NCBI GenBank assembly: GCA_009910795.1
Contig: VMEE01000023.1
Location: 1-64,000, forward strand
DNA length: 64,000 nucleotides
DNA from: Dehalobacter sp. CP
GTDB taxonomy: Bacteria; Bacillota_B; Desulfitobacteriia; Desulfitobacteriales; Syntrophobotulaceae
Reading direction: 5' to 3'
The translations under genes were made by a program, and so were the position numbers. Each line of letters opens with the position of its first letter. The stretch's first letter is position 1. Shown here one piece after another: positions 19,347 through 47,466 of the stretch. The notes beneath the pieces were generated by a model, which had not been told where the DNA came from, made no database searches, and saw only the letters and a list, made by a program, of their open reading frames with translations.

Positions 19347-19360
19347 AGAGGTGAAAAAGG

Positions 19361-21731: not shown

Positions 21732-21767
21732 CTTTGGATTGTTAATGACAAAAAAATACAAACTAGG

Positions 21768-21802: not shown

Positions 21803-21805
21803 TTA

Positions 21806-22031: not shown

Positions 22032-22349
22032 ATGGGTGGAATTATCGCATATATTTTGGGTCTTGCTACTGTATTGCTTATTCAATTATACAAAAAGTCT
22101 GTGGAGAAGAAGAACCGCAAGTTCGGCATCTGGAACTGGGTATTATCAATATTTGTTACACTCTATGTAGATTTTTTAATATATTGGCTCTACATGGGAG
22201 TATGGGAGGGGCAGCCCAAAGCCGGAATAGTCGGATTATTCCTGATGGGTATTATTGGGGTCGTTATCGTTGCTGTTGCTCAATTATTGGTCAGCAAATC
22301 TTTTGGAAAAAAAACGATTGCCAAATTAATGAAAGGAGAAAAAGCATAA
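22032..22349 (+). CDS. rdhB: RdhB6, membrane anchor of reductive dehalogenase
   Basis: 105 residues with three transmembrane helices (GGIIAYILGLATVLLIQLY; WVLSIFVTLYVDFLIYWLYMG; GIVGLFLMGIIGVVIVAVAQ) and charged loops. It is diverged from RdhB1-5, but size, helix pattern and position directly before rdhA6 identify it. The ATG 22032 is chosen because helix 1 starts there. An AAGGGAG site lies 14 nt away, and an in-frame GTG at 22020 is too close to it, so the exact start is uncertain. Confidence 0.75.
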   Translation: MGGIIAYILGLATVLLIQLYKKSVEKKNRKFGIWNWVLSIFVTLYVDFLIYWLYMGVWEGQPKAGIVGLFLMGIIGVVIVAVAQLLVSKSFGKKTIAKLMKGEKA

Positions 22350-22350
22350 A

Positions 22351-30264: not shown

Positions 30265-30504
30265 GTTTGCGTTAGATTTTTCTGAATATTCAAAAAAGTA
30301 TTCGTTTAACATACACAAAAAGTTGGCTGCTATAAACTGAATACGAGCGCTCATGTTTATAATAAGGATCCAGATTTTAAGTAAAGGAGGAAAGGCAAAG
30401 ACTAAGTCTAAAAAAACCAGACTTCATAGCGCAAATGTTTAGCATCTAAGGGACTTTTAACATTATCTTTTTTAATTTTCACAAATTGGAATGGAGTGAA
30501 CAGG
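30265..30504 (+). promoter_or_regulatory. leader and promoter region of rdhA7
   Basis: 240 bp. It contains AAGTCT-AAAAAAACC-AGACTT, a 6-bp stem at about 30401-30422, and an unused AAGGAGGAAAGG site at about 30384-30395 with no following start. No TGTG-N8-CACA promoter is present, so regulation differs from site 1-3 operons. Confidence 0.4.
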
Positions 30505-32058
30505 ATGGAAAATAGCCCGTTAGAAAATGGCCAGGGAAATGGCTCCGTAGTAGATAAGATTAAATCTGTTCAAATCAGCAGACGTTCTTTATTTAAATTT
30601 GCCGGGCTTGCTGGGGGTGTAGCGGCACTCGGGGGAATTGCTGCCAGTAGCTTTGGTGATGCAAAGTCCATTGATACGATGATGGGATGGGAATCAGAAC
30701 AAGGGGAAGTATATTTTAATCGTGAGCCGTTTAGAGTAGATAAGCCTGGTTATGAGATTAAAGGACCGGTCAATCGTGTGGATCAAGACGTAGATTCACC
30801 AACCTTTCGTCGTCTGTACTATCAAGAAGATGCTTTATTAAGCAAAAAAGGCGAAGAAAATTTAATGCCCAGATTGAAGGAATATTACGCAAAGCATCCT
30901 GATAAACTGGAAGGCGACAGAGCGTGGTTCACCAAACTTCTTCCAAACCTCGCTGAAGAAGAGAAAAAAATGAATAAGGATATGTGGGGAATTGCAACTG
31001 CATGGAACAAGGCTTGGACCAGCATGCTTGCTCCCTTAGTAGGGGACCCAAAAGAGTGGGACTTTAAGGGTGTAATCAAAGAACCATTAAAAGTTAAGGA
31101 TCCAAAAGAAACAAGCAAACTCATTAAAAAAATGGCAGGCCTCTTTGGTGGGACTTTAGTGGGTATTACGAAAGTCAATCCGAGGTGGATCTTAGGCTGG
31201 GGTGGTGGCGTGGACCCCAGGATGCTTCCAATTTTAGCTGCGGTAGGAATTGATCCAATAACGCCAAGGGGGGTAAGAGGCGGTCCCATAGACATCCCCG
31301 ATTGGTGGCAATATGCAATTGTCATTGCTGTACCCCATGAACCTAATTTAATAGAAGCAACACCGCTTTTTTACAGTCCATTTGAGGCATATACGCGGTC
31401 AGGCCTTGCTGCTGCAAGACTTACGGGCTTTATCAAAGCTTTGGGGTATCCTGCCAGATATAACGGAAACCCAATTATAGGGTGGGATGAACTTTTAGCC
31501 ACGCCGTTAGCAATTGATGCAGGATTGGGTGAGATGGGAAGGCCTGGCATATTGGTTACACCCGAATTTGGACCCTCGGTAAAATTGGCTGTTGTACTGA
31601 CAAATCTTCCTATGGAGCCGGATCGGCCAATCAACATGGGCTTAAAGGATTTCTGCGACAAGTGTGGTATTTGCGCGGAAAAATGTCCTGGTGGCTCTAT
31701 TCCAAGCGGACAACCCGAACTGCAGGACGATGGCGTGGTACGTTGGATGTCAGACAGAGAAAAATGTCAGAACTATTATGCTTCTGTTCCCATCAGACAT
31801 ATGTGCGGTGTTTGTTATTCTGTGTGTCCGTGGCGCAGATTTGACAATGCGTTGCATAAGTATAGCCGTGAATTGGCTGTAAGAGATCGAACCGGAATAG
31901 CACATCAAATCATGTTATGGGGGCAAAAGAGCTTTTATCCAAGTCCGTCAAAAGACGATTATAATGCTCCGACGTGGGCGACTTATAAAGACGTGCCTTG
32001 GTGGATGAGAACGGATATGTTCTTTGACGGGATACCGGAAGGCATCTTTAAGAAATAG
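30505..32058 (+). CDS. rdhA: RdhA7, long reductive dehalogenase catalytic subunit (Dehalococcoides-like branch)
   Basis: 517 residues, longer than the others. Tat motif ISRRSLFKFAGLAGGVAALGG (about 25-45); a long N-terminal region with EVYFNREPFRVDKPGYEIKG; a core with ITKVNPRWILGWGG and PARYNGNPIIGWDELLATP; Fe-S motif 1 CDKCGICAEKCP at about 383-395; motif 2 Cys/CGVCYSVCPWR at about 430-442. The GSIPSG and PWWMRTDMFFDGIPEG C-terminal features resemble RdhAs of Dehalococcoidia (VcrA-like group) more than the CprA group. ATG 30505 is chosen with GGAGTG upstream; in-frame GTG 30496 is too close to that site. Gene order A-B-C-E-K. Substrate unknown. Confidence 0.92.
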   Translation: MENSPLENGQGNGSVVDKIKSVQISRRSLFKFAGLAGGVAALGGIAASSFGDAKSIDTMMGWESEQGEVYFNREPFRVDKPGYEIKGPVNRVDQDVDSPTFRRLYYQEDALLSKKGEENLMPRLKEYYAKHPDKLEGDRAWFTKLLPNLAEEEKKMNKDMWGIATAWNKAWTSMLAPLVGDPKEWDFKGVIKEPLKVKDPKETSKLIKKMAGLFGGTLVGITKVNPRWILGWGGGVDPRMLPILAAVGIDPITPRGVRGGPIDIPDWWQYAIVIAVPHEPNLIEATPLFYSPFEAYTRSGLAAARLTGFIKALGYPARYNGNPIIGWDELLATPLAIDAGLGEMGRPGILVTPEFGPSVKLAVVLTNLPMEPDRPINMGLKDFCDKCGICAEKCPGGSIPSGQPELQDDGVVRWMSDREKCQNYYASVPIRHMCGVCYSVCPWRRFDNALHKYSRELAVRDRTGIAHQIMLWGQKSFYPSPSKDDYNAPTWATYKDVPWWMRTDMFFDGIPEGIFKK

Positions 32059-35145: not shown

Positions 35146-35217
35146 AATCTCACCATCTTTTCTCTTGACTTTTCTTCAATTTCATTTAGAATAAGACGTA
35201 ATAATCATACATTCTTT

Positions 35218-35366
35218 TTTGGTGTCTCTTATCGAGAAGAATAGGGAATCAGGTGCAATTCCTGGACGGACCCGCCGCTGTAAATAGCTGTGATGACTGT
35301 ACGATGCCACTGAGAAATCGGGAAGGCACAGAAATCGGTTAAAGCTATGAGTCAGAAGACCTGCCA
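35218..35366 (+). ncRNA. cobalamin (B12) riboswitch
   Basis: Canonical elements are in order: GGTGTCTCTTATCGAGAAGA, then GGGAATCAGGTGCAATTCCTG (paired stem with the conserved AGGTGCAA-type loop), GGACGGACCCGCCGCTGTAA, the B12 box GATGCCACTGAGAAATCGGGAAGGC (about 35303-35327; given in parts), and AGTCAGAAGACCTGCC at the 3' end. With the terminator that follows it should repress the downstream 12-kb operon when cobamide is plentiful. Confidence 0.93.
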
Positions 35367-35395
35367 ATGAAGATATCAACATGAAGCAATGGTAA

Positions 35396-35442
35396 AGTTT
35401 CAGTTTGAGAGTTAGTATCTCTCAAAACTGGAACTTTTTTTG
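35396..35442 (+). terminator. expression-platform terminator of the cobalamin riboswitch
   Basis: GTTTCAGTTTGAGAG / CTCTCAAAACTGGAAC stem (one bulge, one G-U) followed by TTTTTTT, ending 50 nt before the first gene of the operon. Confidence 0.85.
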
Positions 35443-35492
35443 TATGCATGTCGTTTACATAGTTTAGATTTTTATATGGAGGCTTTCATCCG

Positions 35493-37034
35493 ATGGAACC
35501 TGCGGTACAGCTTAAAATAGAATCTCTTGTATTTCCGCCTGAGACAAAGAAAGTGTTAAAAGATATCGACTTAACCATCAATCAAGGAGATTTCATCGCC
35601 ATTACTGGGGAAGCCGCATCGGGAAAATCGATGTTACTCCATAGTATCACCGGGGCGGCGTCTCAATTTTTTAACGGGCAGCTAAACGGTACCATTAGGG
35701 TCATGGGGCAAGACATCCATGCAATCCCCTTGGCAAAAATGTGTGATTATATCGGCTATATGATGCAGGAACCGCAAAATCAAATGGTCAGTATCACGGT
35801 AGAGGAAGAAGTGGCTTTCGGGATTGCCAATATGGAACTTCCTTGGGATGAAATGAAGAACAGAGTCAAAAAAACTTTACAATTTGTTGGACTAGAGGGT
35901 TTTGAACAAAGAAAGACGGATGGACTGTCCGGCGGCCAAGCCCAAAGAGTGGTATTGGCAAGTGTTCTCGCGATGGAAACGCCCATTCTTGTTTTAGATC
36001 AGCCCGCCGCAGAATTAGACGGAAAAGGAAAACGGGATCTTTATTCCTATATCAGCTATTTAAATAAAGAAAAGGGAATTACCGTGATTATGGTGATGGA
36101 CCGGGCCTGCGATATTCTTCTCTATACCAACCGTATTCTTATTATAGCTGAAGGAACAATCAGAGAAGAATGCAGCCCTGGTGACTATCAGAAACGCTTC
36201 AATCAAACAAGACCAACCCAAAATATGACGGCGGCAAATGAAAAGTTAAATGAGAAATTGAATGAAAAATCGAATGAAAAATCGAATGAAAAATTGATGG
36301 AAGTAAAGGATCTGGCCTTTACCTATAAAGGTGGTTTCAAAGGCTGTGAAAATATTAATTTAAATATTAATTACGGTGATTTTATTGGGGTGATTGGACT
36401 CAATGGTTCAGGGAAAACGACGTTGTTGAAATTAATGGAAGGTTTGCTTATCCCGGATACGGGTGCGATTCGAATCTTTGGCAAACCCCTGACCAAGAGG
36501 AACTTAGCAACGATACGCAGTCAAATAGGTTTCCTGTTTCAAAACCCCGATCTTCAAATCTTTGCGAACACAGTAAAAGATGAGGCGGCATTTGTTTTAA
36601 GAACAAGAAAACTGCCGGAAGAGGAAATTGCAGAGAAAGTAAATGGGATTTTAGACAAAGTCGGGCTATTGGCATTCGCCGATGTCCACCCGCACAGGCT
36701 TAGCCGCTGCCAGCGTCAGAAGCTGGCAATTGCCTCTGTTTTGGTAGGAGGCCCCGAGATTATCATGGCGGATGAACCTACCTCAGGTTTAGATGAAGAA
36801 CAGAGCGCCCTGATCATGGAGCTGCTCTCTGCATTTCAGCAACAAGGTAAAACGGTTATTCTCGTTACCCATGACCTGGGTTTGGCCAAACAATATGCCA
36901 ACCGTATTGTGGCAATGCACATGCACCGTCTGGCATTGGATATTCCGGCCCAAGAGATTGGTTCTTTTGAAGAGGTCCTTAAAGACATAGGGTTAGATTT
37001 CCAGAAGGAAGGCGTTGCTTATGGCTTTCATTGA
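35493..37034 (+). CDS. ECF-transporter fused double ATPase (EcfA-EcfA', YkoD-like)
   Basis: 513 residues with two ABC ATPase domains. Domain 1 (about 1-235) has Walker A GEAASGKS (39-46), signature LSGGQ (about 145-149) and Walker B LVLDQPAAELD. Domain 2 (about 270-510) has Walker A GLNGSGKT (about 302-309), Walker B IMADEPTSGLDE, and an altered signature LSRCQ in place of LSGGQ. The linker is a tandem NEKLNEK/NEKSNEK repeat. It powers uptake of a small vitamin-type substrate with the T and S subunits that follow. The fused layout is like YkoD of YkoEDC. As first gene after the B12 riboswitch, cobamide, a precursor or cobalt would be logical cargo, but this is inference. Confidence 0.88.
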   Translation: MEPAVQLKIESLVFPPETKKVLKDIDLTINQGDFIAITGEAASGKSMLLHSITGAASQFFNGQLNGTIRVMGQDIHAIPLAKMCDYIGYMMQEPQNQMVSITVEEEVAFGIANMELPWDEMKNRVKKTLQFVGLEGFEQRKTDGLSGGQAQRVVLASVLAMETPILVLDQPAAELDGKGKRDLYSYISYLNKEKGITVIMVMDRACDILLYTNRILIIAEGTIREECSPGDYQKRFNQTRPTQNMTAANEKLNEKLNEKSNEKSNEKLMEVKDLAFTYKGGFKGCENINLNINYGDFIGVIGLNGSGKTTLLKLMEGLLIPDTGAIRIFGKPLTKRNLATIRSQIGFLFQNPDLQIFANTVKDEAAFVLRTRKLPEEEIAEKVNGILDKVGLLAFADVHPHRLSRCQRQKLAIASVLVGGPEIIMADEPTSGLDEEQSALIMELLSAFQQQGKTVILVTHDLGLAKQYANRIVAMHMHRLALDIPAQEIGSFEEVLKDIGLDFQKEGVAYGFH

Positions 37035-37743
37035 AAAAATTGATCCGCGTACGAAGTTGGTATGGTGTTTAACACTCATTCTTACAGCTTTGCTTTCACA
37101 GAATCTGAGCCTGGAAATCGGAATTATTGCCTTGGTAATCATTGCGGATTGTATTTTTACCAACCATTTAAAAAAATATAAAATACTGTTGCCAGTAATG
37201 CTTTTAGTAGCCTCGCAGATTCTTGTCATACAGTTATTGTTCTGCCGGGAGGGGGACCTTCTCTGGAAGTGGGGTATTCTGTCTGTTTATACAGGCTCAA
37301 TTCCGGCCGCTGCTTTGGGTATTTCCCGGACGGCTGCTGTGACCTTGGCCGCTGTTCAGTTTATGACCTGGACTTCTGCCACAGATGCGGCTTTAATGCT
37401 TATAGCATGGGGTGTCCCTTATCGTTATGCCATGTTGGTCGTTATGACAAAACGTTTTTTTCCTCTGATGCAAAAGGAATATCTGGCAATTTCAGAGAGT
37501 CAATCGGTTCGGGGTTATCCCTCGGAAGGAATTAAAAATAGAATAAAAAATCTTCCGCTAACCTTTATGCCATTGCTCTATCGCACAGTCCGGCATACTT
37601 CAGATATCGCTCTTGCAATGGAGTTAAAAGGTTATGGCCGAAGCAAGCAGCGGACGTTTGGCAAACAATTGCATTTAAAAAGCTGGGAAATGATCAGTAT
37701 GATGGTTTGTACCCTATTCTTTATCACCGTTAATTTTATTTAA
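37021..37743 (+). CDS. ECF-transporter transmembrane component EcfT
   Basis: 240 residues with four or five transmembrane helices and the EcfT hallmark coupling helices near the C-terminus (ESQSVRGYP at about 159-167 and MELKGYGRSK at about 200-209; both Arg-containing motifs contact the ATPases). An N-terminal FIEKIDPRTKLVWCL matches the family start. It overlaps the ATPase gene; ATG 37021 is taken with AAGGAAGG upstream, and an in-frame TTG lies two codons before. It works with the ATPase and the S component in one membrane complex. Confidence 0.88.
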   Translation: MAFIEKIDPRTKLVWCLTLILTALLSQNLSLEIGIIALVIIADCIFTNHLKKYKILLPVMLLVASQILVIQLLFCREGDLLWKWGILSVYTGSIPAAALGISRTAAVTLAAVQFMTWTSATDAALMLIAWGVPYRYAMLVVMTKRFFPLMQKEYLAISESQSVRGYPSEGIKNRIKNLPLTFMPLLYRTVRHTSDIALAMELKGYGRSKQRTFGKQLHLKSWEMISMMVCTLFFITVNFI

Positions 37744-37773
37744 AATTAAAAAATATAATTTTAGGAGGACATT

Positions 37774-38310
37774 ATGAAAAACAAATTTTTAAGAACCGAC
37801 ACCAAAGCGCTCGTAGGGTCCATTCTCTTAGGGATTGTCTTTGTCATAGCCTGTCAGGCGACAGGGTTTATTGACAACCTTCTTCCCACAGGCAAAGCAG
37901 GCATGTACTTAATTAACGGTACGGTCTGGGCTTCCTTTACAGCCCTCATTGTTCTGCTTTATAAACAGCCTGCAGGGATCATTGCCGGGGAAGTTGAAGC
38001 TATCATTTCCATTTGGTACAGTCCGCTGTGGATTGCTTTTATCTTTGCGAATGCTATCGGGTCACTTGCCGTATCCTTCGTGGCGGCCAAATATTCTATG
38101 GAAAAATGGGGGCACCACATTTTCGCTCAATTCCTTTGTAATGTTTTGGGGAATGCTGTTGTTTGTATCGGATTAATTTATATTTACCAGTTACCTGTTA
38201 AGGTTGCCGTTGTTGAAGCCTTGATTACCATTGCAGTCTGCTGGCCTCTTTCCACAGTCATCACAAAATTGGTGTATGACAGCATTAAAAAATCAGGTTT
38301 AGCCCAGTAA
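37774..38310 (+). CDS. ECF-transporter substrate-binding S component (YkoE-like)
   Basis: 178 residues with about six transmembrane helices. The AGIIAGEVEAIISIWYSPLW segment at about 67-86 recalls the conserved Glu region of YkoE-type S components (thiamine-pyrimidine uptake), though identity is low. ATG 37774 follows TTAGGAGGAC. The S component decides cargo. Its location in a B12-riboswitch operon points to a corrinoid-related compound or to a compound handled by the decarboxylase genes downstream; sequence alone cannot decide. Confidence 0.78.
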   Translation: MKNKFLRTDTKALVGSILLGIVFVIACQATGFIDNLLPTGKAGMYLINGTVWASFTALIVLLYKQPAGIIAGEVEAIISIWYSPLWIAFIFANAIGSLAVSFVAAKYSMEKWGHHIFAQFLCNVLGNAVVCIGLIYIYQLPVKVAVVEALITIAVCWPLSTVITKLVYDSIKKSGLAQ

Positions 38311-38355
38311 AGAATCATTTGCGGGAGACAATGCAGTAAGAAAAGAGGTTAGGAT

Positions 38356-39723
38356 ATGAGCCAAGACTTAAGAGATTTTTTGAAGCAGCTGGAACGGGAT
38401 GGTGAAGTGAAGCATGTCACGGAAGAAGTCAAAAGAGCGTATGAAATCAGCACTCTCATTATGGAACTGGAAAAAGAGCACCGTTATCCCGTCATGGTTT
38501 TCGATAAAGTAGAAAACAGTGCGTTTCCTGTGGTGACCAGTATCTTAAGCACCAGAGAACGGTTTGGCAAAGGCCTGGGTGTCGAAGCGTCTAAAGTTTC
38601 TGAGACCTATGCCCAGCGTATCAAAAAACGGATTGAAGAGGTCAAAGTTATTGAGAACCCTCCTTTTGCTGAGCATTGTATCACCGGTGATGAGATTGAT
38701 CTCTATAAGCTTCCGATTCCGACCCACTTTCCGATTGACGCCGGACCCTATGTGACCTCCGGACTGTGTGTTGCCAAAGACCCTGTAAGCGGTGTGGAAA
38801 CCTTAGGTTTCCACCGCATGCAGTTAAAAAACAAGAATACCTTAGGGATTTCACTCCATTCCCGTCAAAGGCTCTGGGAATATTTCCGAAGAAGCGAAGA
38901 AAGAGGACAGAGCCTGGAAGCCGCAATCGTGATTGGTGTTCATCCCAATATTGCCTTGGGATCGATGGCCCTCGTCCCCTATGACCAGGGAAAATATGGT
39001 GCGATTGCCGGACTTTTCGGTGAACCATTAGAGGTTGCACCTTGCGCAACGGTCAATTTGCAGGTTCCGGCCTACGCGGAAATTGTCCTGGAAGGTGAAA
39101 TATTGGCTGACGTACGGGAACAGGAAGGTCCTTTCGCTGAATTTACCAATTACGCCTGCTATCGCAGTACGGAAAATGTCTTTAAAGTCAAAGCCATCCG
39201 CTACCGGCAAAACGCTTTTTATCATGATTTAACGCCTGGGATGAGCAGTGAGCATATCACGGTTGTGGCCATTCAGAGAGAAGGCGATGTTTTAAACGCT
39301 TTACATCAGACCTTGCCGAATATTAAAGCAGTTCATGCACCTTTTTCCGCCTGCGGACTTTTTCATTGCTATATTTCTATGAAAAAAATTGCCGAAGGTC
39401 AGCCAATGCAAGCGATTTACGCCGCTTTGGCGGTCGACCACAATATTAAAATGGTCATTGTGGTGGATGAAGATGTTGACGTCTTTAACGAAGAGGAAGT
39501 CCTATGGGCACTTGCCACTCGGTTACAAGCGGATAAAGGCGTTTCCATTTTGCCGCAGCACCTGGGAATGGGTGTGACCCTTGACCCCTCGACGGATGAA
39601 CTGAGCCGTACTTCTAAAATGGGGATTGATGCCACAAAACCGTTAAGCGGCTTTGCTCCTAAAATCGAGATGAACGATGACGTCAAAAAAGCAGTGCAGC
39701 GGCTTCTTAAATATGCCAGATAA
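38356..39723 (+). CDS. UbiD-family prenyl-FMN decarboxylase
   Basis: 455 residues, usual for UbiD/LpdC/VdcC non-oxidative decarboxylases, which use prenylated FMN with Mn and K to (de)carboxylate aromatic or alpha,beta-unsaturated acids. Visible family elements are the N-terminal FLKQLERDGEVKHVTEEV, VFDKVENS, and QEGPFAEFTNY at about residues 256-266 (family GPFGEFTGYY). A C-terminal DATKPLSGFAPK follows. It starts ATG 38356 behind AGAGGTTAGG. The partner UbiX and an LpdD-like gene follow in the same operon, forming the B-C-D set of hydroxyarylic acid decarboxylases. The substrate is unknown; B12-riboswitch control is unusual for this family. Confidence 0.88.
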   Translation: MSQDLRDFLKQLERDGEVKHVTEEVKRAYEISTLIMELEKEHRYPVMVFDKVENSAFPVVTSILSTRERFGKGLGVEASKVSETYAQRIKKRIEEVKVIENPPFAEHCITGDEIDLYKLPIPTHFPIDAGPYVTSGLCVAKDPVSGVETLGFHRMQLKNKNTLGISLHSRQRLWEYFRRSEERGQSLEAAIVIGVHPNIALGSMALVPYDQGKYGAIAGLFGEPLEVAPCATVNLQVPAYAEIVLEGEILADVREQEGPFAEFTNYACYRSTENVFKVKAIRYRQNAFYHDLTPGMSSEHITVVAIQREGDVLNALHQTLPNIKAVHAPFSACGLFHCYISMKKIAEGQPMQAIYAALAVDHNIKMVIVVDEDVDVFNEEEVLWALATRLQADKGVSILPQHLGMGVTLDPSTDELSRTSKMGIDATKPLSGFAPKIEMNDDVKKAVQRLLKYAR

Positions 39724-39763
39724 GGGATGCGTATTTTAAATATACCGGTTAAAGGATGAGCCT

Positions 39764-41839
39764 ATGATTAAAATTGCCATTGATACAGGAGGTACATTTA
39801 CCGACTACACTGCGGTAGGGATGTTTCAAAACAGTGAACCCAAAACGGTCTTTGTCAAAAATCTCACGGATCATAACCATCTTGCCCAGGGGATGATCGC
39901 TGGCTTAAAAAAATTAGCAGATGCCTGGCATACGGATTTAGAGACACTCCTCTCAGAAACGGAACAAATCATTCACGGCACCACCTTAGCTTTAAACGCC
40001 CTTTTAGAAAAAAAAGGCGCGGTTACTGCACTTTTTACCACGGAGGGGTTCCGTGATGCGCTGGAGATACGCCGTTCTCAGCTTGAAAATCAATGGGATC
40101 TGCGAGCGGAAACGCCGGATGTACTGGTTCCGCGCAGACTGCGCTTGGGTATTGCGCAGCGTATGGACTACAAAGGGGACATCCTTAAAGTGCTGGATGA
40201 ACAAGCTGTCCGAAATGCTTGTCTGAAATGCAAGGCATACGGCGTACAGAGCATTGCGGTTTGTTACCTTTTTTCTTTTCTAAATCCGGAACATGAAAAA
40301 AGAACAGCAGAAATTATTCGAGAAGAACTACCCGGCGTTTTCGTGGCGCTCTCTTCGGACGTAGCGCCAAAAATCAGAGAGTATGAAAGAACTTCCACGA
40401 CGGTTCTCAATGCTTATCTGACGCCGGTTCTTCAAGATTATCTCCGCACCGTCAAAAAAGAACTGGCCCAATATGGCTGGGGCAAACCGATTCACATGAT
40501 GATGAACAGCGGTGGCTTAAGCGATACGGATGCGATGTCCAGTTTCGCTGTCAGAACCCTTTTTTCTGGACCTGCCGGCGGTGCCTGCGGCAATGAAGCC
40601 ATCGGGAAAATGACAGAAAAGCCCTATACGGTGTTGGCAGATATGGGGGGGACCAGTTTTGATGTGCATGTGGCAGACAGTAAAAATCAGCTGATCCCCC
40701 AATCGAAGATTGCTGGCTATCCGTTATCGATCCCGACCATTGACATCACTTCCATTGGAGCCGGCGGGGGTAGCATTGCCCGTCTGGACGAAAGCGGAAG
40801 ATTGTTGGTGGGACCGGACTCCGCCGGATCAGTTCCAGGCCCTGCCTGTTACGGTTTAGGCGGGACCGAGCCTACGGTTACGGATGCTTTGGTTGTTTTG
40901 GGACTGATCGATGAAGATAGTTTCCTCGGTGGTCAAATGGGCCTTAATAAGAAGCTGGCTGAAAAAGTGATTCACGACAAAGTTGCTGCGCCGCTGGATA
41001 TCTCTGCGACAGAAGGGGCCAATATCATTTACCGGATTGCTACTGAGATGATGGCTGATGCGGTGCGTCTTGTCACAATCCAAAAAGGCAATGACCCCAG
41101 AAAATTCTCCTTGATCGGCGCGGGAGGAGCTTTTCCGTTGTTTGCAGCCAACATGATGGATGCGCTGCATATGAAAGAAGTCTTATTTCCGGTCACCGGT
41201 CCTGTCTTTTGTGCATGGGGTATGTTAGGGGCAACCCGTCGTTGTGATTTCACGCGAAGTTTCTTTATGGAAAAGGGACAATGGGACCCATCGAAGATTA
41301 ACGTGGTTATTACCGACATGAAAGAAGAAGGAAAAGCGGAGCTCGGGCGTTTGGGAGTACCGGAAAATGAGCAGAATTTCCGACTTACCCTGGAAATGCG
41401 TTACATCGGACAGCACCATGAAATAGCAATACCCTGGCAGGGAACGTTTACCTCAGAGAGCCGGGATGCTTTAGAAATCGCCTTCAATCGTACCCACGAA
41501 AGCATCTATGAATATGTTGAAACAGACAAAGAATGGGAAATCATGAATATCCATCTGGCTTGTGTGGAACGAGAGAAGGAAAACACACGCTTTCCGTTCC
41601 CTGAGAATGACATTCTCTTAGCGAATAGGACAGTGGCAGGGAATCCCTTCGGACAAACGGGCGAAATCTCCGTCCCAGTCTACCACGCCGGTGATTTGAC
41701 CGGCAATGGTACAAAAAGTATCAACGGCCCGGCTCTGATCAATTTTGACTACACTACGGTTTTGATTCCCGCTGGCTTTGCAGGCAAATCGGTTAAGAAC
41801 GGTGTTTTATCGATAACAAAAGAAGGTGCAGAAGCATGA
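39764..41839 (+). CDS. hydantoinase/5-oxoprolinase-type subunit A (HyuA family)
   Basis: 691 residues, matching N-methylhydantoinase A, 5-oxoprolinase N-half and acetone/acetophenone carboxylase beta-type subunits. These actin-fold ATPases phosphorylate a carbonyl or amide oxygen. IAIDTGGTFTDYTAVG at residues 4-19 is the phosphate-binding N-motif. IIHGTTLALNALLEKKG is at about 68-84, and LFSGPAGGACG and ADMGGTSFDV (second phosphate loop) at about 268-300. ATG 39764 follows AAAGGATG. It overlaps hyuB by 4 nt, so the two are translationally coupled. The reaction could be lactam/imide opening or ATP-dependent carboxylation. Confidence 0.88.
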   Translation: MIKIAIDTGGTFTDYTAVGMFQNSEPKTVFVKNLTDHNHLAQGMIAGLKKLADAWHTDLETLLSETEQIIHGTTLALNALLEKKGAVTALFTTEGFRDALEIRRSQLENQWDLRAETPDVLVPRRLRLGIAQRMDYKGDILKVLDEQAVRNACLKCKAYGVQSIAVCYLFSFLNPEHEKRTAEIIREELPGVFVALSSDVAPKIREYERTSTTVLNAYLTPVLQDYLRTVKKELAQYGWGKPIHMMMNSGGLSDTDAMSSFAVRTLFSGPAGGACGNEAIGKMTEKPYTVLADMGGTSFDVHVADSKNQLIPQSKIAGYPLSIPTIDITSIGAGGGSIARLDESGRLLVGPDSAGSVPGPACYGLGGTEPTVTDALVVLGLIDEDSFLGGQMGLNKKLAEKVIHDKVAAPLDISATEGANIIYRIATEMMADAVRLVTIQKGNDPRKFSLIGAGGAFPLFAANMMDALHMKEVLFPVTGPVFCAWGMLGATRRCDFTRSFFMEKGQWDPSKINVVITDMKEEGKAELGRLGVPENEQNFRLTLEMRYIGQHHEIAIPWQGTFTSESRDALEIAFNRTHESIYEYVETDKEWEIMNIHLACVEREKENTRFPFPENDILLANRTVAGNPFGQTGEISVPVYHAGDLTGNGTKSINGPALINFDYTTVLIPAGFAGKSVKNGVLSITKEGAEA

Positions 41840-43587
41840 CAAGGACAACGACGGAAGATATGATTAACCGCACCGTTATCGCCAATCGTCTCGATAGTAT
41901 CACCAAAGAAATGGGACTCGCCTTGGAGCATTCCGCCCATTCCCCGATCTTCGCCGAAGCCTGTGACTTTGCTTGTTGTATTTGTGATCGAGACGGTCAA
42001 TTGGTCTCTCAGTTAAGCGGTATTCCGATTTTGGCGACAGCAGGCTCCTTCAGCGTCAAATCTGTTTTGCGGAAATATCCGAATAGCATCACAAACGGTG
42101 ATGTTTTTATCATCAATGATCCCTATGACGGTGGAAATCACCTGCCTGATATCGGAATCATTACCCCTGTCTTTTTTGAGGACAATTTAATGTTTTTCTG
42201 TGTCAGCCGCGCCCATCACGGGGATATCGGAGGTTCCACCGCGGGCAGCTATAATCCCAAGGCAACCGAAATATTTCAGGAAGGAATTCGAATCCCCCCG
42301 ACAAAACTAATGCGCAACAACGAATTCATGGGTGAAATTTTAGATCTGATTTTAATCAATACCCGTAATCCCAACATGCTCAAAAGCGACCTCTTAGCCC
42401 AGATCGGCGCCAACAAAGTTGCTGCGAAGCGCATTCTGGAGATGGTGGAAGCTTATACGCCCGCTGTCGTGAACAAAGCCATTGCCGAAACCCTGGAACA
42501 AACCGAAATGCTCACGAAGAAGCGGATAAGAGAGATTCCTGACGGTATTTACCGGGCGACCGAATACATTGATGATGACGGTTTTCAAGAAGAACCTGTT
42601 AAAATTGAGATTGCAGTGAAAGTAGAAGGCGAACGTCTTTTGGTTGATTTCGCAGGGACAGACCCGCAGGTCAAAGGCTTTATCAATACTTCAGTGGTCA
42701 CAGCGACGACTGCTTCGGGTATTGCGGTACTTTGGTTTTTAGGCGACGATATTCCCAGAAATGATGGTGCCTTCCGCTGCATCGATGTCCATTTGCCTAA
42801 AGGATCTTTAGTAAATCCATATGAACCGGCACCCATGACGCTTTGCACCTTAACCCCGGCCAGTGAAATAATCGGCGCCATTTTTCAGGCATTGAATCAA
42901 GCAGTCCCCGGAAGGGTTCCTGCGGGATATACGCGCTATGCAGGCCCTTCTTATTATGGTACCGATCCGAGGAATAACCGCTATTACGTTGGGTTTTCGT
43001 TTTGCTCGACCGGAAGCGGCGGCGCCATGCAAGGAAGAGACGGAAAATCCTATATGTCGCCCATGTCTAATTTCGGTGGTGTCAAAACGCCGGATATTGA
43101 ATCCAACGAAATTCAATATCCGCACATCACCCTTTATCATGAAATGGAAACGGATACGGCCGGTGCCGGAGAATATCGCGGCGGAGCAGGGATGAAATAT
43201 GCGTTTGAGCTATACGATGAAGGCAGCCATATCGTAAATTTTGGGGATGGGATGAAATTTGCACCTTACGGTTTAAATGGCGGAAACCAAGGGAGTTTAA
43301 ATAAAGGGGTTTTTATTCATCAGGGGGAACCGGTCGTTATGGCAAGTAAAGAAGCGCCAAGATGTGTTGCCAAAGGTGACCAGGTCATGCTGAGTTCCTG
43401 CGGCGGCGGCGGATGGGGCAAACCGCTGGACCGCCCGGTAGAAAAGGTATATGCGGATGTTTTGGATGAGATCATCTCCATCAAAACGGCTAAAGAAATT
43501 TATGGTGTTGTCATCACGAAAACAGGCATCGACTATGATCAAACGAACCAATTCAGAAACAGTAAAAATGGGAATAAAAGAGTGTAA
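41836..43587 (+). CDS. hydantoinase/5-oxoprolinase-type subunit B (HyuB family)
   Basis: 583 residues of the HyuB family: HSPIFAEACDFACCICD near 36-52, NDPYDGGNHLPDI at about 94-106, RAHHGDIGGSTAGSYNP at about 126-142, and a C-terminal SCGGGGWGKPLDRP. It is the partner of the HyuA subunit upstream (ATGA overlap). In the hydantoinase/oxoprolinase/acetophenone carboxylase superfamily the B subunit completes hydrolysis or carboxylation. No biotin or zinc gamma subunit gene (as in acetone carboxylase) follows, so an ATP-dependent amidohydrolase is slightly favoured. Confidence 0.88.
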   Translation: MTRTTTEDMINRTVIANRLDSITKEMGLALEHSAHSPIFAEACDFACCICDRDGQLVSQLSGIPILATAGSFSVKSVLRKYPNSITNGDVFIINDPYDGGNHLPDIGIITPVFFEDNLMFFCVSRAHHGDIGGSTAGSYNPKATEIFQEGIRIPPTKLMRNNEFMGEILDLILINTRNPNMLKSDLLAQIGANKVAAKRILEMVEAYTPAVVNKAIAETLEQTEMLTKKRIREIPDGIYRATEYIDDDGFQEEPVKIEIAVKVEGERLLVDFAGTDPQVKGFINTSVVTATTASGIAVLWFLGDDIPRNDGAFRCIDVHLPKGSLVNPYEPAPMTLCTLTPASEIIGAIFQALNQAVPGRVPAGYTRYAGPSYYGTDPRNNRYYVGFSFCSTGSGGAMQGRDGKSYMSPMSNFGGVKTPDIESNEIQYPHITLYHEMETDTAGAGEYRGGAGMKYAFELYDEGSHIVNFGDGMKFAPYGLNGGNQGSLNKGVFIHQGEPVVMASKEAPRCVAKGDQVMLSSCGGGGWGKPLDRPVEKVYADVLDEIISIKTAKEIYGVVITKTGIDYDQTNQFRNSKNGNKRV

Positions 43588-43641
43588 GAAAAAATAAGGC
43601 GACAAAAACAAGGATAAGGATAAGGTAAGGACTGATAAGTA

Positions 43642-44202
43642 ATGAAAATTCTTGTTGCAATGACCGGTGCCACCGGGGTGATCTACGGCGTACGTCTATT
43701 GGAAGTCCTCAAAGAGACAGAGCATCATGTTTCCCTGATCATGAGCGGGTGGGCCAAAGAAACGCTCTCGCTGGAAACGGATTATGCTGTTGGCTACGTC
43801 CAATCTTTAGCAGACAAAGTATACGACCATAACGACTTAGCTGCCGCTGTTGCCAGCGGTTCTTACGGGATCGAGGCGACCATTGTCGCACCTTGCAGTA
43901 TGAAGACTCTGTCCGGGATTGCGAATGGCTACAGCGATAATCTGATTGTCCGCGCTTCCGACGTGGCCTTGAAAGAGCGGCGTCCTCTCTTATTGATGGT
44001 CAGAGAAACACCGCTTTCGTCCATTCATCTAAAAAATATGACGACCGTAACAGAAGCGGGCGGCATACTCATCCCGCCCGTACCGGCTTTTTACCACCGG
44101 CCCAAAACCATTGACGATATTGTAAATCAAAGTGTCGGCAAGGTGTTGGATTTGTTGAGAGTTCCTCATAATCTCTATGAAAGATGGAGAAGTGACCAAT
44201 GA
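43642..44202 (+). CDS. ubiX: UbiX-family flavin prenyltransferase
   Basis: 186 residues, the standard UbiX length. VAMTGATGVIYGVRLLEVL at residues 4-22 is the flavin phosphate loop. APCSMKTLSGIANGYSDNL is at about 87-105, and RPLLLMVRETPLSSIHLKNM at about 114-133. It adds dimethylallyl to FMN, making prFMN for the UbiD protein of this operon. ATG 43642 follows AAGGTAAGG. It overlaps the following LpdD-like gene by 4 nt. Confidence 0.92.
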   Translation: MKILVAMTGATGVIYGVRLLEVLKETEHHVSLIMSGWAKETLSLETDYAVGYVQSLADKVYDHNDLAAAVASGSYGIEATIVAPCSMKTLSGIANGYSDNLIVRASDVALKERRPLLLMVRETPLSSIHLKNMTTVTEAGGILIPPVPAFYHRPKTIDDIVNQSVGKVLDLLRVPHNLYERWRSDQ

Positions 44203-44570
44203 AAATAACCATCGGACAAGACAAGCTTGCCCTGTCCTACGAGATATCCATCATAGGACACGACATTCTAATTACCGTTACCGGAGGGAAACAACATATC
44301 GGCAGTGCAGCGGTCGGAAACTGCGGCACGGTTACAAAGTATGCCGTAGAAGGCCACCGTGATGACGTCCTGGCCGGAACTCTGGCACAGGATGTTTCCA
44401 AGCTTTTTAACTGCATTTGCTTGGTAGCTGCAGGATTTCATCAAGACAATATGACCAAAGAAGAAATTGAGATTGTGTTGCTAAATCATCAGCAGGGAAT
44501 CCAAAAAGTGATTACGTATTTGAAAGAGAACTATGCAAAGAGAACCGATGGCAAAATAATTAAAGGATGA
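44199..44570 (+). CDS. LpdD-like small subunit/prFMN chaperone of a UbiD decarboxylase
   Basis: 123 residues with an HIGSAAVGNC segment (about 30-39), then GHRDDVLAGTLAQDVSKLF and FHQDNMTKEEIE. This pattern fits the LpdD/VdcD-like proteins found with lpdB (UbiX) and lpdC (UbiD) in gallate and hydroxybenzoate decarboxylase loci, suggested to help load prenylated flavin. It overlaps the ubiX stop by 4 nt. The identification is by size, motif style and context; confidence in exact function is moderate. Confidence 0.7.
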   Translation: MKITIGQDKLALSYEISIIGHDILITVTGGKQHIGSAAVGNCGTVTKYAVEGHRDDVLAGTLAQDVSKLFNCICLVAAGFHQDNMTKEEIEIVLLNHQQGIQKVITYLKENYAKRTDGKIIKG

Positions 44571-44577
44571 TACCGGC

Positions 44578-45873
44578 ATGAACAAAATTGATTATCAAAA
44601 CAATGACTATGACTTTTTATTGAAGGTCAAAGCGGAACAGCAAACAGCAGCGATTCTTCAGAAGGCGATGGCATGTGATATTTTTACCGCGATTGAAGAA
44701 GGTAAATCTTTCGGTGATCTGACCAATTGCCTTCATCTCGATGCGAAAGGAACGTTTCTTTTCCTCGACGTTTTAGACAAAATGGGTCTAATCATTAGGA
44801 AAGAAGGCTATCTGTGCAATGCCCCCGTCAGCGCAAAATATCTTACGGCAACAAGTCCTTTTTTTAGCCTGGACGCTTTAAAAAGCGGTAAAATCAGCGG
44901 CATCTTTATCGCGGAAAAACTTTTGCCCATGTTAGCATCTTTTAGGGGGAATGTCCTCTTTGAGGGATTTTCTGCTGATATTTTTTCTCCGTTAATTCAA
45001 AAGTTTATGTTGGAGCAATGTAAAGAAATTTCTTTTGATGATCAATCGCCTTATGAGCTGATTATCACAGGCGAAAATTACGAAAAACACGCGGAAAGCA
45101 TTATCCATAACGGAATTATTGGTGTCATGGGGGCGTTTTCCGGGGAATACTCTTTAAACACTGCGATGAACTTATATCATAATTACCTTAATGAGAATGA
45201 CCTTCAACAAAAAGACAGCTCTATGTTTTCGGTAAACATCCTTTCAGAGAAAGATGTGGCTGCATTTTTTACGAAAAAGCAGATGCATCAGACACCTTTA
45301 TTACCCCTCACCCGTGATATTTCGGTGATTTTTGCATCCAAGAATAAGCACAAATTAGAGGAGCTGGCCATAACAAAAGAAGCGCAAATCTACGCAAGAT
45401 TAAAAAGACTGCCCATTCAGTCCATCACGATGATCAATCCTCAGGATGTTGTTACGGCCCACTGGGCAAAAGATCATTGCCGTTACGGATGCTCCAGCTA
45501 TGGGGAAAAGTGCTGTCCGCCAAATAGCCCTTCCTATGAGGAAACGAGGGTGAAATTAGACGGCTATACCAAAGCTTTTCTGATTGAAGGCCAGCCGCCG
45601 ACAAGTGATTTTCAAAAACTAATGCTGAATGCAGAGAAATTAGCTTTTAAACATGGATTCTACAAAGCATTCTCTTTTTGGGCAGGACCATGCCATATTT
45701 GCAGCGAGTGCAAACCGCCAGCATCGCCCAAGAAGTGTACAGTGACCCGTCCCTCTATGGAAAGCGCCGGTATTGATGTTTTTGCCACTGTTTCTAAGCA
45801 AGGCTTTACAATGCGAACCTTAAAAGATAAACAGGAATTCGTTAAATACTTTGGACTGTTACTTCTGGAATAA
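44578..45873 (+). CDS. fusion of O-methyltransferase-like dimerisation domain and DUF2284 metal-binding domain
   Basis: 431 residues. About 10-105 resembles the winged-helix dimerisation domain of O-methyltransferases (ILQKAMACDIFTAIEEG..., LDVLDKMGLIIRK). About 110-260 is where a SAM domain would be, but no GxGxG motif is visible, so methyl transfer is doubtful. About 270-431 is a DUF2284-type domain with many cysteines: HCRYGCSSYGEKCCPPN (about 300-316) and CHICSECKPP (about 371-380), likely binding an Fe-S cluster or other metal. It starts ATG 44578, 7 nt after the LpdD-like gene. The combination is unusual, and a role in corrinoid or substrate-linked redox chemistry is only inference. Confidence 0.75.
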   Translation: MNKIDYQNNDYDFLLKVKAEQQTAAILQKAMACDIFTAIEEGKSFGDLTNCLHLDAKGTFLFLDVLDKMGLIIRKEGYLCNAPVSAKYLTATSPFFSLDALKSGKISGIFIAEKLLPMLASFRGNVLFEGFSADIFSPLIQKFMLEQCKEISFDDQSPYELIITGENYEKHAESIIHNGIIGVMGAFSGEYSLNTAMNLYHNYLNENDLQQKDSSMFSVNILSEKDVAAFFTKKQMHQTPLLPLTRDISVIFASKNKHKLEELAITKEAQIYARLKRLPIQSITMINPQDVVTAHWAKDHCRYGCSSYGEKCCPPNSPSYEETRVKLDGYTKAFLIEGQPPTSDFQKLMLNAEKLAFKHGFYKAFSFWAGPCHICSECKPPASPKKCTVTRPSMESAGIDVFATVSKQGFTMRTLKDKQEFVKYFGLLLLE

Positions 45874-45981
45874 ATGATAGGTTTCTTTAGCTGGATTGAA
45901 TTGTTATCTCCAAACAGAATGTATTTGTGATTTTGAGAAATAATAATGGAAATCACAAACCTGAATATGGAGAATACAATA

Positions 45982-47466
45982 ATGAAGAAAAAACATAAGG
46001 GATTATCTGTTTGGCAGCTTACAATGATGGCTTTGGGAACAGTAATCGGAGGCTCCTTTTTTTTGGGCTCATCGGTAGCGATTAATGCTGCAGGACCTTC
46101 AATTATCGTTTCCTTTATTCTTGGCGGAGTCATCGTTTATTTTATCCTTTTTGCATTGTCGGAAATGACGGTTGCAAATCCTGATGTCGGCTCCTTTCGT
46201 ACTTTTGCAGCCCAAACCTTTGGGAAAGGAACCGGTTTTGTAGTTGGTTGGGTATATTGGGCTGGGATGGTTTTGGCTATGTCCAGTGAGGCTACTGCTG
46301 TATCGATCCTGATGCGCGAATGGGTTCCCAATATATCCATAGCCGGATTGGGAAGCTTAATTATTGTAAGCGTCACGCTGCTAAATTTATTGGGAGCTGA
46401 TAAATTAAGTAAGCTCGAGAGTGGTCTGGCTGCCGTTAAGCTATTAGCCCTGGCTTCGTTTATTATCATCGCCTTACTTTTAATCATGGGATTATTTTCG
46501 ACTGTTTCCCAAATTGGTGTCGGAGAATTAGTCAGGGAACCTTTGATGCCGGCGGGAATAAAAGGGATAGCAGGGAGTATGCTTATCGTCATATTTTCCT
46601 ATGCGGGTTTTGAAATCATCGGACTGGCTGCTTCGGAAGCTGACAATCCAACAAAAACGATTCCCAAAGCAATTTCCCATACAGTATTAATTCTAGTAGG
46701 ATTTTATATTGTCTCTATTGCTGTGCTGCTTCCGTTAATCCCGACCTCCAGTCTGAGTGAAAAATTCAGTCCCATGGTAGCTGCGCTTGATAGATGGGGA
46801 ATCAGCTGGGCGGGCAACGCCATTAACTTTGTACTCATAACAGCGATACTTTCCACCATGTTGGCAGCGATGTTTGGTCTGGGCAGAATGATGCGTTCTC
46901 TTGCCGAAGAAGGCCAGGCACCCAGGTGGTTAAAGGACCGGAGAAACGTCCCGTATCGGGGAATACTGATTTCTGGTTTAGCCATGCTTGCGGGATTGGG
47001 CATTGGTCTTATGCTCCCAAGTGTGTACTTATTTTTGATAAGCTCTGGTGGGTTTGCTTTGTTATTTACGTATGCGGTAATTATGGCGACTCACTTACGC
47101 TTTCGAAAAAAATATGGGTGTCCGCCATCAGGGAAGTGTCAGATGCCTTTATACCCTTATTCTAGCTGGATTGTTTTTCTGAGTCTGATCATGATTATCA
47201 TCAGTATGCCATTTATCTCCGGGCAGGGAACAGGACTTATTGCCGGGATAATCATGATTGCTGTGTTTTATGTCCTCTATATGTTTCTAACTAGGATCAA
47301 TAAACTACAAACAAATAACGCTAATAGAGCCAATAATAAACGATTAAACAATAATACCTGTAAAACGAAACTGTCCGTCGAATTCTCCAGAGATTTAATA
47401 GAAAAAGTGGATTTTCAGGCAGACAGAAAGCAAGAATGCCAGCCAAGAAAGGACGAATTACCTTAA
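45982..47466 (+). CDS. APC-family amino-acid/amine permease
   Basis: 494 residues, twelve predicted membrane helices, with the APC first-helix motif ALGTVIGGSFFLGSS at about residues 15-29 and the FSYAGFEIIGLAASE helix 6 motif at about 203-217. It imports an amino acid, amine or related metabolite. ATG 45982 has GGAG 9 nt upstream; an in-frame ATG at 45946 lacks a site. It is the last gene of the riboswitch operon (73 nt after the DUF2284 fusion gene). Its cargo may feed the decarboxylase or hydantoinase genes. The C-terminal 60 residues are hydrophilic and Asn-rich (TNNANRANNKRLNNNT). Confidence 0.82.
   Translation: MKKKHKGLSVWQLTMMALGTVIGGSFFLGSSVAINAAGPSIIVSFILGGVIVYFILFALSEMTVANPDVGSFRTFAAQTFGKGTGFVVGWVYWAGMVLAMSSEATAVSILMREWVPNISIAGLGSLIIVSVTLLNLLGADKLSKLESGLAAVKLLALASFIIIALLLIMGLFSTVSQIGVGELVREPLMPAGIKGIAGSMLIVIFSYAGFEIIGLAASEADNPTKTIPKAISHTVLILVGFYIVSIAVLLPLIPTSSLSEKFSPMVAALDRWGISWAGNAINFVLITAILSTMLAAMFGLGRMMRSLAEEGQAPRWLKDRRNVPYRGILISGLAMLAGLGIGLMLPSVYLFLISSGGFALLFTYAVIMATHLRFRKKYGCPPSGKCQMPLYPYSSWIVFLSLIMIIISMPFISGQGTGLIAGIIMIAVFYVLYMFLTRINKLQTNNANRANNKRLNNNTCKTKLSVEFSRDLIEKVDFQADRKQECQPRKDELP

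Follow-up and report, generated by a model that had tools for sequence, protein, structure and literature searches.

A cobalamin-riboswitch-linked module joining an ECF importer to UbiD and HyuAB-type enzymes in Dehalobacter and other bacteria, with a possible part in cobamide supply

Introduction

Cobalamin riboswitches commonly control cobalt uptake, and they also control B12-independent alternatives, as where MetE stands in for MetH. Dehalobacter respires with corrinoid-dependent dehalogenases. Among ECF transporters, YkoEDC belongs to group I, with a fused double ATPase and its own T component.

Several described systems come close to the locus treated here. In excerpts of PMC8123684, CblT and CblS form an alpha-ribazole salvage route in which a B12-linked importer takes up a form of the lower ligand, and CbrUVT is given as a dedicated ECF transporter for cobyrinate diamide. 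Within the genus itself, Dehalobacter restrictus has corrinoid operons 1–5, each with a cobalamin riboswitch and a terminator (excerpts of PMC4285132). On the side of the enzymes, the hydroxyaryl-acid decarboxylase systems LpdBCD and VdcBCD combine UbiX and UbiD with an LpdD-type partner, LpdD being described as a chaperone of prFMNH2 in the abstract of PMC10865409, and the substrates given for prFMN decarboxylases in the literature passages at hand are small acids of aromatic, heteroaromatic or acrylic type.

Results

The window, the whole 64,000-nucleotide stretch of DNA that was analysed, comes from a Dehalobacter relative and carries ten co-directional genes on the + strand downstream of a cobalamin riboswitch, the last ending at 47466 (Table 1). 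A covariance search gave the RF00174 aptamer 110.7 bits, where the gathering score is 31.5 (E 7.1e-27), with positions 1–189 of the 189 in the model covered, as for a full-length cobalamin riboswitch; the earlier note had recognised the element but began it at 35218, 15 bases late. The terminator that it had read after the riboswitch was borne out as a stable hairpin with a T run, within a 65-nt stretch for which none of 200 shuffles was equally stable, and which is missing from the list of a simple terminator scan. Site totals in the scan showed no excess over chance (23 promoters against 25.7, 14 terminators against 15.4), and the promoter in Table 1 is a consensus match only, of a kind that the region shows no more often than chance predicts. 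From the riboswitch family and the hairpin we infer repression, with transcription passing the terminator when cobamide is scarce.

Table 1. Features of the riboswitch leader and the ten-gene operon in the window.
Feature	Position	Strand	Evidence
Sigma-70-like promoter, TTGACT-16-TAGAAT	35165..35192	+	10/12 consensus matches; just 5' of riboswitch
Cobalamin riboswitch aptamer RF00174	35203..35382	+	110.7 bits
Terminator-like hairpin with T run, riboswitch expression platform	about 35394..35440	+	folding z -5.1
EcfAA, two fused ECF ATPase domains	35493..37034	+	TIGR04520 390.9 bits (cut-off 315), two stretches
EcfT, transmembrane coupling component	37015..37743	+	PF02361 82.3 bits (cut-off 25)
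Predicted ECF S component, family without Pfam or NCBIfam entry	37774..38310	+	predicted fold
UbiD-family prFMN-dependent (de)carboxylase, distinct subfamily	38356..39723	+	R154, E257, E262 conserved
HyuA (hydantoinase/oxoprolinase A)	39764..41839	+	Pfam/NCBIfam
HyuB (hydantoinase/oxoprolinase B)	41836..43587	+	Pfam/NCBIfam
UbiX flavin prenyltransferase (makes prFMN)	43642..44202	+	TIGR00421 257 bits (cut-off 108.9)
LpdD-like prFMNH2 chaperone	44199..44570	+	PF21758 81.6 bits (cut-off 27)
Short fusion: O-methyltransferase-like domain without SAM motif + DUF2284 Cys-rich domain	44578..45873	+	
APC amino-acid permease, lineage-specific member	45946..47466	+	PF00324 263.9 bits

Measurement agreed with the earlier description of short gaps or ATGA overlaps between the ten genes. 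EcfAA and EcfT overlap by 20 nt, and gaps of 30, 45 and 40 nt separate EcfT from the S gene, S from UbiD and UbiD from HyuA; HyuA and HyuB share an ATGA overlap, as do UbiX and LpdD, and the remaining gaps are of 54 nt (HyuB to UbiX), 7 nt (LpdD to the DUF2284 fusion) and 72 nt (fusion to permease). The gap between S and UbiD, at which a strong terminator or a transcript start had been thought able to divide the operon, was examined, and neither a terminator nor a promoter was listed there by the scan.

The gene families proposed earlier were confirmed by Pfam and NCBIfam, the S component excepted. The ECF transporter is complete, its ATPase and T component by family match and its S component by predicted fold. 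The protein assigned as S has no Pfam family at E 0.01, the YkoE family included, and no NCBIfam match; its profile found no solved chain in the PDB even with E values up to 1 allowed. No Foldseek match reached an E of 0.001, and the highest-ranking folds belong to small-vitamin S components, led by 5edl, which we take to be the thiamin/pyrimidine S component YkoE. Cobalamin S components are absent from the folds listed, an absence that by itself excludes nothing.

UbiD matched PF01977 at 202 bits, and R154, E257 and E262, which have counterparts in the HmfF alignment and do not vary among 15 sequences, may be read as the E-R-E catalytic residues of the family. The subfamily is set off sharply, with scores of at least 819.8 bits against at most 314.3 in 35 genomes. 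An intermediate relative (730.9 bits) is found in genome G052, without a riboswitch and without S in the genome. It adjoins a TctC/B/A-like transporter and histidine-utilisation-like genes, one amidohydrolase among them domain-checked. The closest solved chains are the heteroaromatic-acid enzymes HmfF (289 bits) and AnInD (184 bits), and the VdcC/LpdC class was not reached (287.8 bits against a VdcC cut-off of 650), nor was the VdcB cut-off (251.9 against 290). An argument on UbiD specificity from two HmfF residues was dropped, as the literature passages at hand do not name them. The LpdD-like gene adjoins ubiX in an operon that also holds ubiD. At another locus (L056), an M20-like fragment of 205 aa lies 3' of UbiD, its N-terminal part not seen.

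The domains of HyuAB (PF01968 264.4, PF05378 158.5 and PF02538 513.1 bits) place the pair in the ATP-dependent amidohydrolase/carboxylase superfamily, in which the nearest known enzymes are 5-oxoprolinase, N-methylhydantoinase and caprolactamase. The closest solved chains to HyuA are 5-oxoprolinase (6yra_A, 373.8 bits), N-methylhydantoinase (7hk5, 363) and the acetophenone carboxylase gamma subunit (312.6). Neither the NCBIfam caprolactamase equivalogs (526.5 and 368.3 bits against cut-offs of 1000) nor those of acetophenone carboxylase (HyuA 342.5 and HyuB 163.9 against 1500) were reached. A carboxylase appears less likely because the hydrolases outscore it, by a margin that for HyuA over acetophenone carboxylase is modest.

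Of 39 loci with the S-bearing operon, drawn from several genera, 37 have a cobalamin riboswitch 5' of it, the two misses having been rechecked. These locus counts omit L078 and L079, whose S matches are weak (E 1.5e-11 and 4.1e-9), and count L034 and L071 each though they are the same locus. Where UbiD stands away from S, 12 of 14 loci have their own cobalamin riboswitch directly upstream. Presence is nested in a sample of 398 genomes, with the S importer in 18 (two weak, L078 and L079), UbiD in 12 and HyuB in 10; among 82 genomes of the class, UbiD was found in 23, S in 26 and both in 21. The UbiD-HyuA-HyuB set recurs in rearranged orders, such as riboswitch-HyuA-HyuB-S-UbiD-EcfAA-EcfT (L072). 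L077 is also reordered, with riboswitch-UbiX-LpdD and riboswitch-S-EcfAA-EcfT-UbiD.

Six clear S-bearing genomes are without the UbiD subfamily, and in two of them (G017 and G262) an aldehyde:ferredoxin oxidoreductase lies beside S instead; the same enzyme is added in variants L070, L075 and L076, its domain having been checked in L070. The importer stands without adjoining UbiD, HyuAB or oxidoreductase at 16 of the 39 S loci, most such genomes carrying UbiD elsewhere. In the genus that holds Desulfosporosinus, neither UbiD nor HyuAB adjoins the importer at 13 of the loci read. Twelve genomes of the genus have UbiD-HyuA(-HyuB) preceded by a cobalamin riboswitch of its own; the set lies on another contig, about 95–410 kb off, or directly upstream of the importer (G040). 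In one such carrier, G048, no S was found.

The riboswitch recurrence, the separate riboswitches where the set is split and the nested presence together support the view that the importer and the prFMN decarboxylase/HyuAB pair are one B12-riboswitch-linked module. The unit that the earlier note had proposed from one sequence, and whose comparison across genomes it had called for, is held together through rearrangement. The DUF2284 fusion, which had been counted as part of the set, did not prove to be core: among the loci read it occurs in five Dehalobacter genomes and one Synergistaceae MAG. The NCBIfam cut-offs for the ArsM-DUF2284 and MbdU fusion classes, 575 and 600 bits, were not reached, its scores being 89 and 84.1. 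The APC permease is beside the module in four of five Dehalobacter genomes. Both genes are additions, missing from most loci.

The link to cobamide making or salvage suggested earlier is plausible on one direct contextual clue. In G018, of the Desulfosporosinus-holding genus, the order is riboswitch-CobT-riboswitch-EcfAA-EcfT-S-UbiD-HyuA-HyuB; this CobT, immediately upstream of the module and behind a riboswitch of its own, is the only intact one, and a 61-residue cobT remnant remains beside cobU-cobS, where G014 and G041 keep full-length cobT. Against this, CobT adjoins the module in only this one of 56 stretches (a set that takes in L078, L079 and stretches without S), and tblastn at 1e-6 found no CobT, CobS, CobU or BzaA/B-like gene in the other 55. 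CobS and CobT matches occur in each of the 26 genomes tested that have S and UbiD together, and do not discriminate carriers because nearly every one of the 46 genomes chosen has them, non-carriers included (CobS in 46, CobT in 45). A BzaB-like protein (ThiC-like, TIGR04386) exceeded the cut-off in 12 of the 26 genomes with S and UbiD and in five of six S genomes without UbiD, a weak trend, and had no match in Dehalobacter genomes G001–G005, a set separate from the window's assembly. Simple replacement of the Bza pathway was rejected as a full account of the module, given those 12 of 26 genomes.

Discussion

The comparison supports a single unit of importer and UbiD-HyuAB under common riboswitch control, while the reaction types are taken from the families, and substrate, order and end point are guesses. 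The reading we prefer, with a probability of roughly 0.4, is a B12-repressed acquisition module that most likely yields a base which serves as the lower ligand of a cobamide or is converted to it. Low cobamide would let the riboswitch pass transcription through the terminator, and the dedicated EcfAA-EcfT-S transporter would import a small compound, probably heteroaromatic or lactam-bearing. UbiX and the LpdD chaperone would load UbiD with prFMN, UbiD would remove (or add) a ring carboxylate, and HyuAB may open a lactam or imide ring at the expense of ATP, yielding a base that would be activated by CobT as lower ligand. A more specific form, which we hold to be doubtful, is an undescribed riboswitch-controlled route in which anaerobes import a heteroaromatic acid, perhaps a bicyclic lactam, and make the lower ligand from it through ATP-driven ring opening and prFMN-based decarboxylation, with a new S family and, in Dehalobacter, the SAM-motif-less methyltransferase-DUF2284 protein as an accessory. 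If the module does supply a lower ligand, this would go some way to show where Dehalobacter and other bacteria in which no Bza route is detected get theirs.

It is somewhat unlikely that use of the imported compound instead replaces the product of a B12-dependent enzyme without feeding cobamide synthesis. B12-independent alternatives under cobalamin riboswitches are known, UbiD and HyuAB resemble catabolic enzymes, three variants bring in the aldehyde:ferredoxin oxidoreductase, and the UbiD relative of G052 lies beside the TctC/B/A-like and histidine-utilisation-like genes; however, no B12-dependent step can be named that such reactions would replace in such varied anaerobes, and in G018 the module is accompanied by CobT.

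Where an importer stands by itself after a B12 riboswitch, as at the 16 S loci above, a corrinoid importer is the simplest reading, and the ECF transporter might carry a corrinoid or corrin fragment whose side groups are trimmed by HyuAB and UbiD in the manner of CbiZ-type salvage. Excerpts of PMC8123684 discuss CbrT and CbrUVT, both of ECF type, among B12-related transporters, and those of PMC4285132 describe other corrinoid transport operons in D. restrictus, induced by starvation. Such import and remodelling is nevertheless unlikely, with no solved chain matched by S, best folds of the small-vitamin kind (with the reservation on list absence given above) and the small acids on which described prFMN decarboxylases act.

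Very unlikely is the uptake of a cobalt-chelator complex with breakage of the chelator by the enzymes, which would fit the general control of cobalt uptake by B12 riboswitches and the CbiM/Q/O-like genes (named by sequence reading) about 3–6 kb upstream of the ECF operon in Acetobacterium (L035 and L036). That unrelated aromatic-acid genes are read through by accident behind a B12-regulated importer is scarcely credible, since the 13 loci of the Desulfosporosinus-holding genus without UbiD/HyuAB beside the importer are set against 12 genomes of that genus with a separate riboswitch for the pair, and against the nested co-occurrence across genomes.

Full-text literature searches aimed at the gene set returned no description of the module. 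UbiD, hydantoinase and riboswitch occurred together in no paper searched, no HyuAB-type member was found described in a B12-regulated operon with UbiD, and UbiD is unmentioned among the matches listed for cobamide and lower ligand. A figure legend in PMC9768040, seen in excerpt, has 'hydantoinase' near corrinoid methyltransferases. The D. restrictus operons share with the module their genus, riboswitch and terminator, but hold other genes as described in the excerpts of PMC4285132, in whose main text 'ubid' and 'hydantoin' have 0 occurrences.

CblT/CblS resembles the preferred lower-ligand reading in B12-linked uptake, and is set apart by description, the excerpts of PMC8123684 naming no UbiD, HyuAB, UbiX or LpdD. 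CbrUVT is likewise a B12-tied ECF transporter, whereas the module's S profile matches no solved chain and enzymes are attached. YkoEDC shares the fused double ATPase, own T component and, if 5edl is YkoE, the best fold, but the module's S has no Pfam match and the riboswitch is for cobalamin, not thiamin. LpdBCD/VdcBCD share the UbiX, UbiD and LpdD-type set, while the module falls below the VdcC/VdcB cut-offs and has ECF and HyuAB genes with it behind a B12 riboswitch. The closest solved UbiD relatives are HmfF (furandicarboxylate) and AnInD (indole-3-carboxylate), yet the module's UbiD is a separate subfamily in its own genomic setting; caprolactamase CapAB, 5-oxoprolinase and N-methylhydantoinase are closest to HyuA/HyuB, with the module below the caprolactamase cut-offs. 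The component families are known; brought together behind cobalamin riboswitches, they point to a cobamide-supply or B12-sparing step undescribed in the searchable literature, and they include an S-component family not yet typed and a UbiD subfamily of testable substrate class.

The riboswitch-led operon

Ten same-strand genes with overlaps or gaps of no more than 72 bases follow a complete cobalamin riboswitch (110.7 bits), which is the sole Rfam match at gathering level within the 64-kb window. A promoter-like site stops 10 bases 5' of the aptamer. The stretch separating the aptamer from EcfAA, the first gene, holds a T-run hairpin of high stability (z -5.1), which is absent from the listing of a simple terminator scan whose matches were at chance level overall. 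In the 45-base gap between the ECF substrate-binding component (S) and ubiD, the sequence scan lists neither promoter nor terminator, so the break that the earlier note had named as counting against its operon is unseen at this level. Close homologues occur in Dehalobacter sp. DCM for S (87%) and for the DUF2284 protein (65%), the latter also in strains DCA and UNSWDHB (72%). Of the genomes compared, the nearest has 47% of sampled 31-letter words in common with the window, the source of which is taken to be a Dehalobacter species.

An array encoding corrinoid-dependent enzymes has the operon at its end; it includes six reductive dehalogenase genes above the TIGR02486 cut-off and a seventh in the same region slightly below it (158.8 vs 160.35 bits), and FMN-binding and Crp-type genes lie close by.

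Features of the window and of compared loci
Feature	Location	Positions	Strand	Remark
Cobalamin riboswitch	window	35203-35382	+	Rfam
Operon	window	to 47466	+	fused double ECF ATPase, EcfT, S component, UbiD, HyuA, HyuB, UbiX, LpdD-like protein, DUF2284 fusion, APC permease
Reductive dehalogenase genes	window	4287-23745 and 30496-32058		TIGR02486
B12-binding corrinoid protein, URO-D family protein, DUF1638	L072 (G128)	10712-15564		3' of module
PYLIS_2 pyrrolysine insertion element	L032	637-736		46.7 bits; upstream in Peptococcaceae MAG contig
Separate UbiD loci with own riboswitch	G027, G029, G030, G032, G034, G035, G036, G040, G044, G045, G048, G051			Rfam or box pattern

Conservation of the riboswitch and its enzymes

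Among 39 loci at which S was clearly matched (two weak-match loci were left out), a cobalamin riboswitch lies 5' of the S-bearing operon in 37. Six of the 39 loci come from an Actinomycetota MAG, a Peptococcaceae MAG, a Synergistaceae MAG, Cryptoclostridium, Acetobacterium paludosum and A. tundrae, and the other 33 from further genomes, with L034 and L071 being one locus; many of the genomes belong to a single genus (which holds the Desulfosporosinus records) and are therefore not independent. The riboswitch was called through a custom box pattern in 33 loci, several but not all of which were also confirmed as Rfam matches, through Rfam in the six named loci (four also by box pattern), and through genome search and Rfam in L072 and L077. 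No riboswitch was found at L058, where S starts ~1.4 kb from the contig end with no ECF genes 5' of it, or at L067, where S has no adjoining ECF genes.

One Dehalobacter genome (G002, locus L052) has seven cobalamin riboswitch matches, one of them at the S operon, ~0.9 kb upstream of EcfAA. A 164-aa ORF lies between the two, ~2.5-3.0 kb 5' of S; by its motif it resembles an IS200-type transposase, and it might uncouple B12 from the operon in that strain.

In 20 loci, the window among them, UbiD is next to S or to the ECF genes of the importer, in several gene orders, such as riboswitch-HyuA-HyuB-S-UbiD-EcfAA-EcfT (L072), or one riboswitch 5' of UbiX-LpdD and a second 5' of S-EcfAA-EcfT-UbiD (L077). 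The importer is found without adjoining UbiD, HyuAB or aldehyde:ferredoxin oxidoreductase in 16 of the 39 S loci. With a UbiD profile across 35 genomes, the module subfamily scored at least 819.8 bits (25 genomes) and other UbiDs at most 314.3. Where this UbiD lies away from S, a cobalamin riboswitch is directly 5' of it in 12 of 14 loci (Table), all with UbiD followed by HyuA, and then HyuB where the stretch is long enough. None was seen within the fetched stretch of the G092 locus, where the contig ends 80 bases 5' of EcfAA, or at the locus of the G052 relative (730.9 bits). The enzymes thus belong to the cobalamin-riboswitch regulon independently of the importer, which is the strongest single result. 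What the earlier note observed is both real and conserved, and its operon-level proposal is right.

A 398-genome phylum sample gave 18 genomes with S (16 once two weak matches are dropped), 12 with the UbiD subfamily and 10 with HyuB; S occurs in all of the UbiD genomes, and UbiD in all of the HyuB genomes. In 82 genomes of the class, S was present in 26, UbiD in 23 and both in 21, UbiD without S being seen in G048 (79% complete) and G052. Fisher tests of co-occurrence, which ignore phylogeny, gave 7e-19 (phylum sample) and 8e-13 (class), or 5e-11 and 0.003 by genus.

Accessory genes and variant neighbourhoods

The DUF2284 fusion is present in all five Dehalobacter genomes compared and in the Synergistaceae MAG. 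The short form, which spans 373-439 aa in the alignment, is modelled with an O-methyltransferase fold (pLDDT 86; top Foldseek match RedM, E 1.1e-8), but the SAM glycine motif is present in 0/33 short forms vs 5/8 aligned long forms. Proteins P0149-P0189 make up a distinct short family, split from long forms by score (401 vs 281 bits). Comparison with 144 distinct S contig sizes matched the largest contig of 7/41 short DUF2284 clusters vs 1/79 others, a rough sign of linkage to S; a long form lies on a 330645-base A. tundrae contig, the same size as that of S locus L036. The APC permease is beside the module in four of five Dehalobacter genomes, and is split in two pieces in L055.

In L070, L075 and L076, an aldehyde:ferredoxin oxidoreductase follows S instead (domain confirmed in L070), with a small ferredoxin-like protein 5' of it in L070 and L075. 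A cis-prenyltransferase-like gene follows HyuB in L073, L074 and L099 (PF01255 confirmed in L073), and a relative lies ~0.4 kb 3' of the oxidoreductase in L076. A CobW-like gene, named by reading, also lies 3' of the module in L072. The 58%-identical UbiD of G052 (L087, L107, L108), without riboswitch or S, adjoins TctC/B/A-like transporter genes; its neighbours also resemble urocanate hydratase, formiminotransferase and an imidazolonepropionase-type amidohydrolase, names assigned by reading sequences, with the amidohydrolase domain confirmed.

Predicted chemistry and the possible link to cobamides

Module UbiD retains R154, E257 and E262, and its nearest solved proteins are HmfF, whose substrate is furan-dicarboxylate, and AnInD, whose substrate is indole-3-carboxylate (PMC8988006). 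UbiX is the source of prFMN, and LpdD is presented in PMC10865409 as a prFMNH2-binding chaperone. HyuA and HyuB score highest against 5-oxoprolinase, N-methylhydantoinase and caprolactamase and lower against acetophenone and acetone carboxylases (HyuA vs solved entries: 373.8 bits for 5-oxoprolinase, 363 for N-methylhydantoinase, 312.6 for acetophenone carboxylase), and both fall under every equivalog cut-off tested. These relatives and roles suggest that UbiD would remove a ring carboxylate and that HyuAB would open a lactam or imide, dependent on ATP.

The earlier note had suggested that the operon may serve cobamide making or salvage. In favour of this is genome G018, with the order riboswitch-CobT-riboswitch-EcfAA-EcfT-S-UbiD-HyuA-HyuB. 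At its cobU-cobS neighbourhood cobT is reduced to a 61-residue remnant; in two congeners, G014 and G041, that position holds a full-length cobT (57% identical to G018 CobT). The sole full CobT of G018 has therefore moved to, or been gained next to, the module. However, in 55 of the 56 stretches, all but that of G018, tblastn detected neither CobT, CobS or CobU nor anything BzaA/B-like, which counts against a strong reading of this case. Dehalobacter genomes (G001-G005) gave zero matches in the BzaB search, which would be consistent with a requirement for an external base. Over all 26 genomes carrying S and UbiD, a BzaB-like protein exceeds the cut-off in 12, and nearly all of the 46 genomes compared have matches to CobS and CobT. 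With G018 weighed against these observations, lower-ligand supply is the leading guess for the role of the module rather than a result.

Relation to known systems

For D. restrictus, the available text of PMC4285132 describes five corrinoid operons with riboswitches; the module operon is not among the operons described there, and the words 'ubid' and 'hydantoin' are missing from its main text. The module is likewise undescribed in the literature searched, and there is a fair chance that it represents a new route, the proposed pathway being a candidate. The parts of the module are known families; what is new is their riboswitch-linked union.
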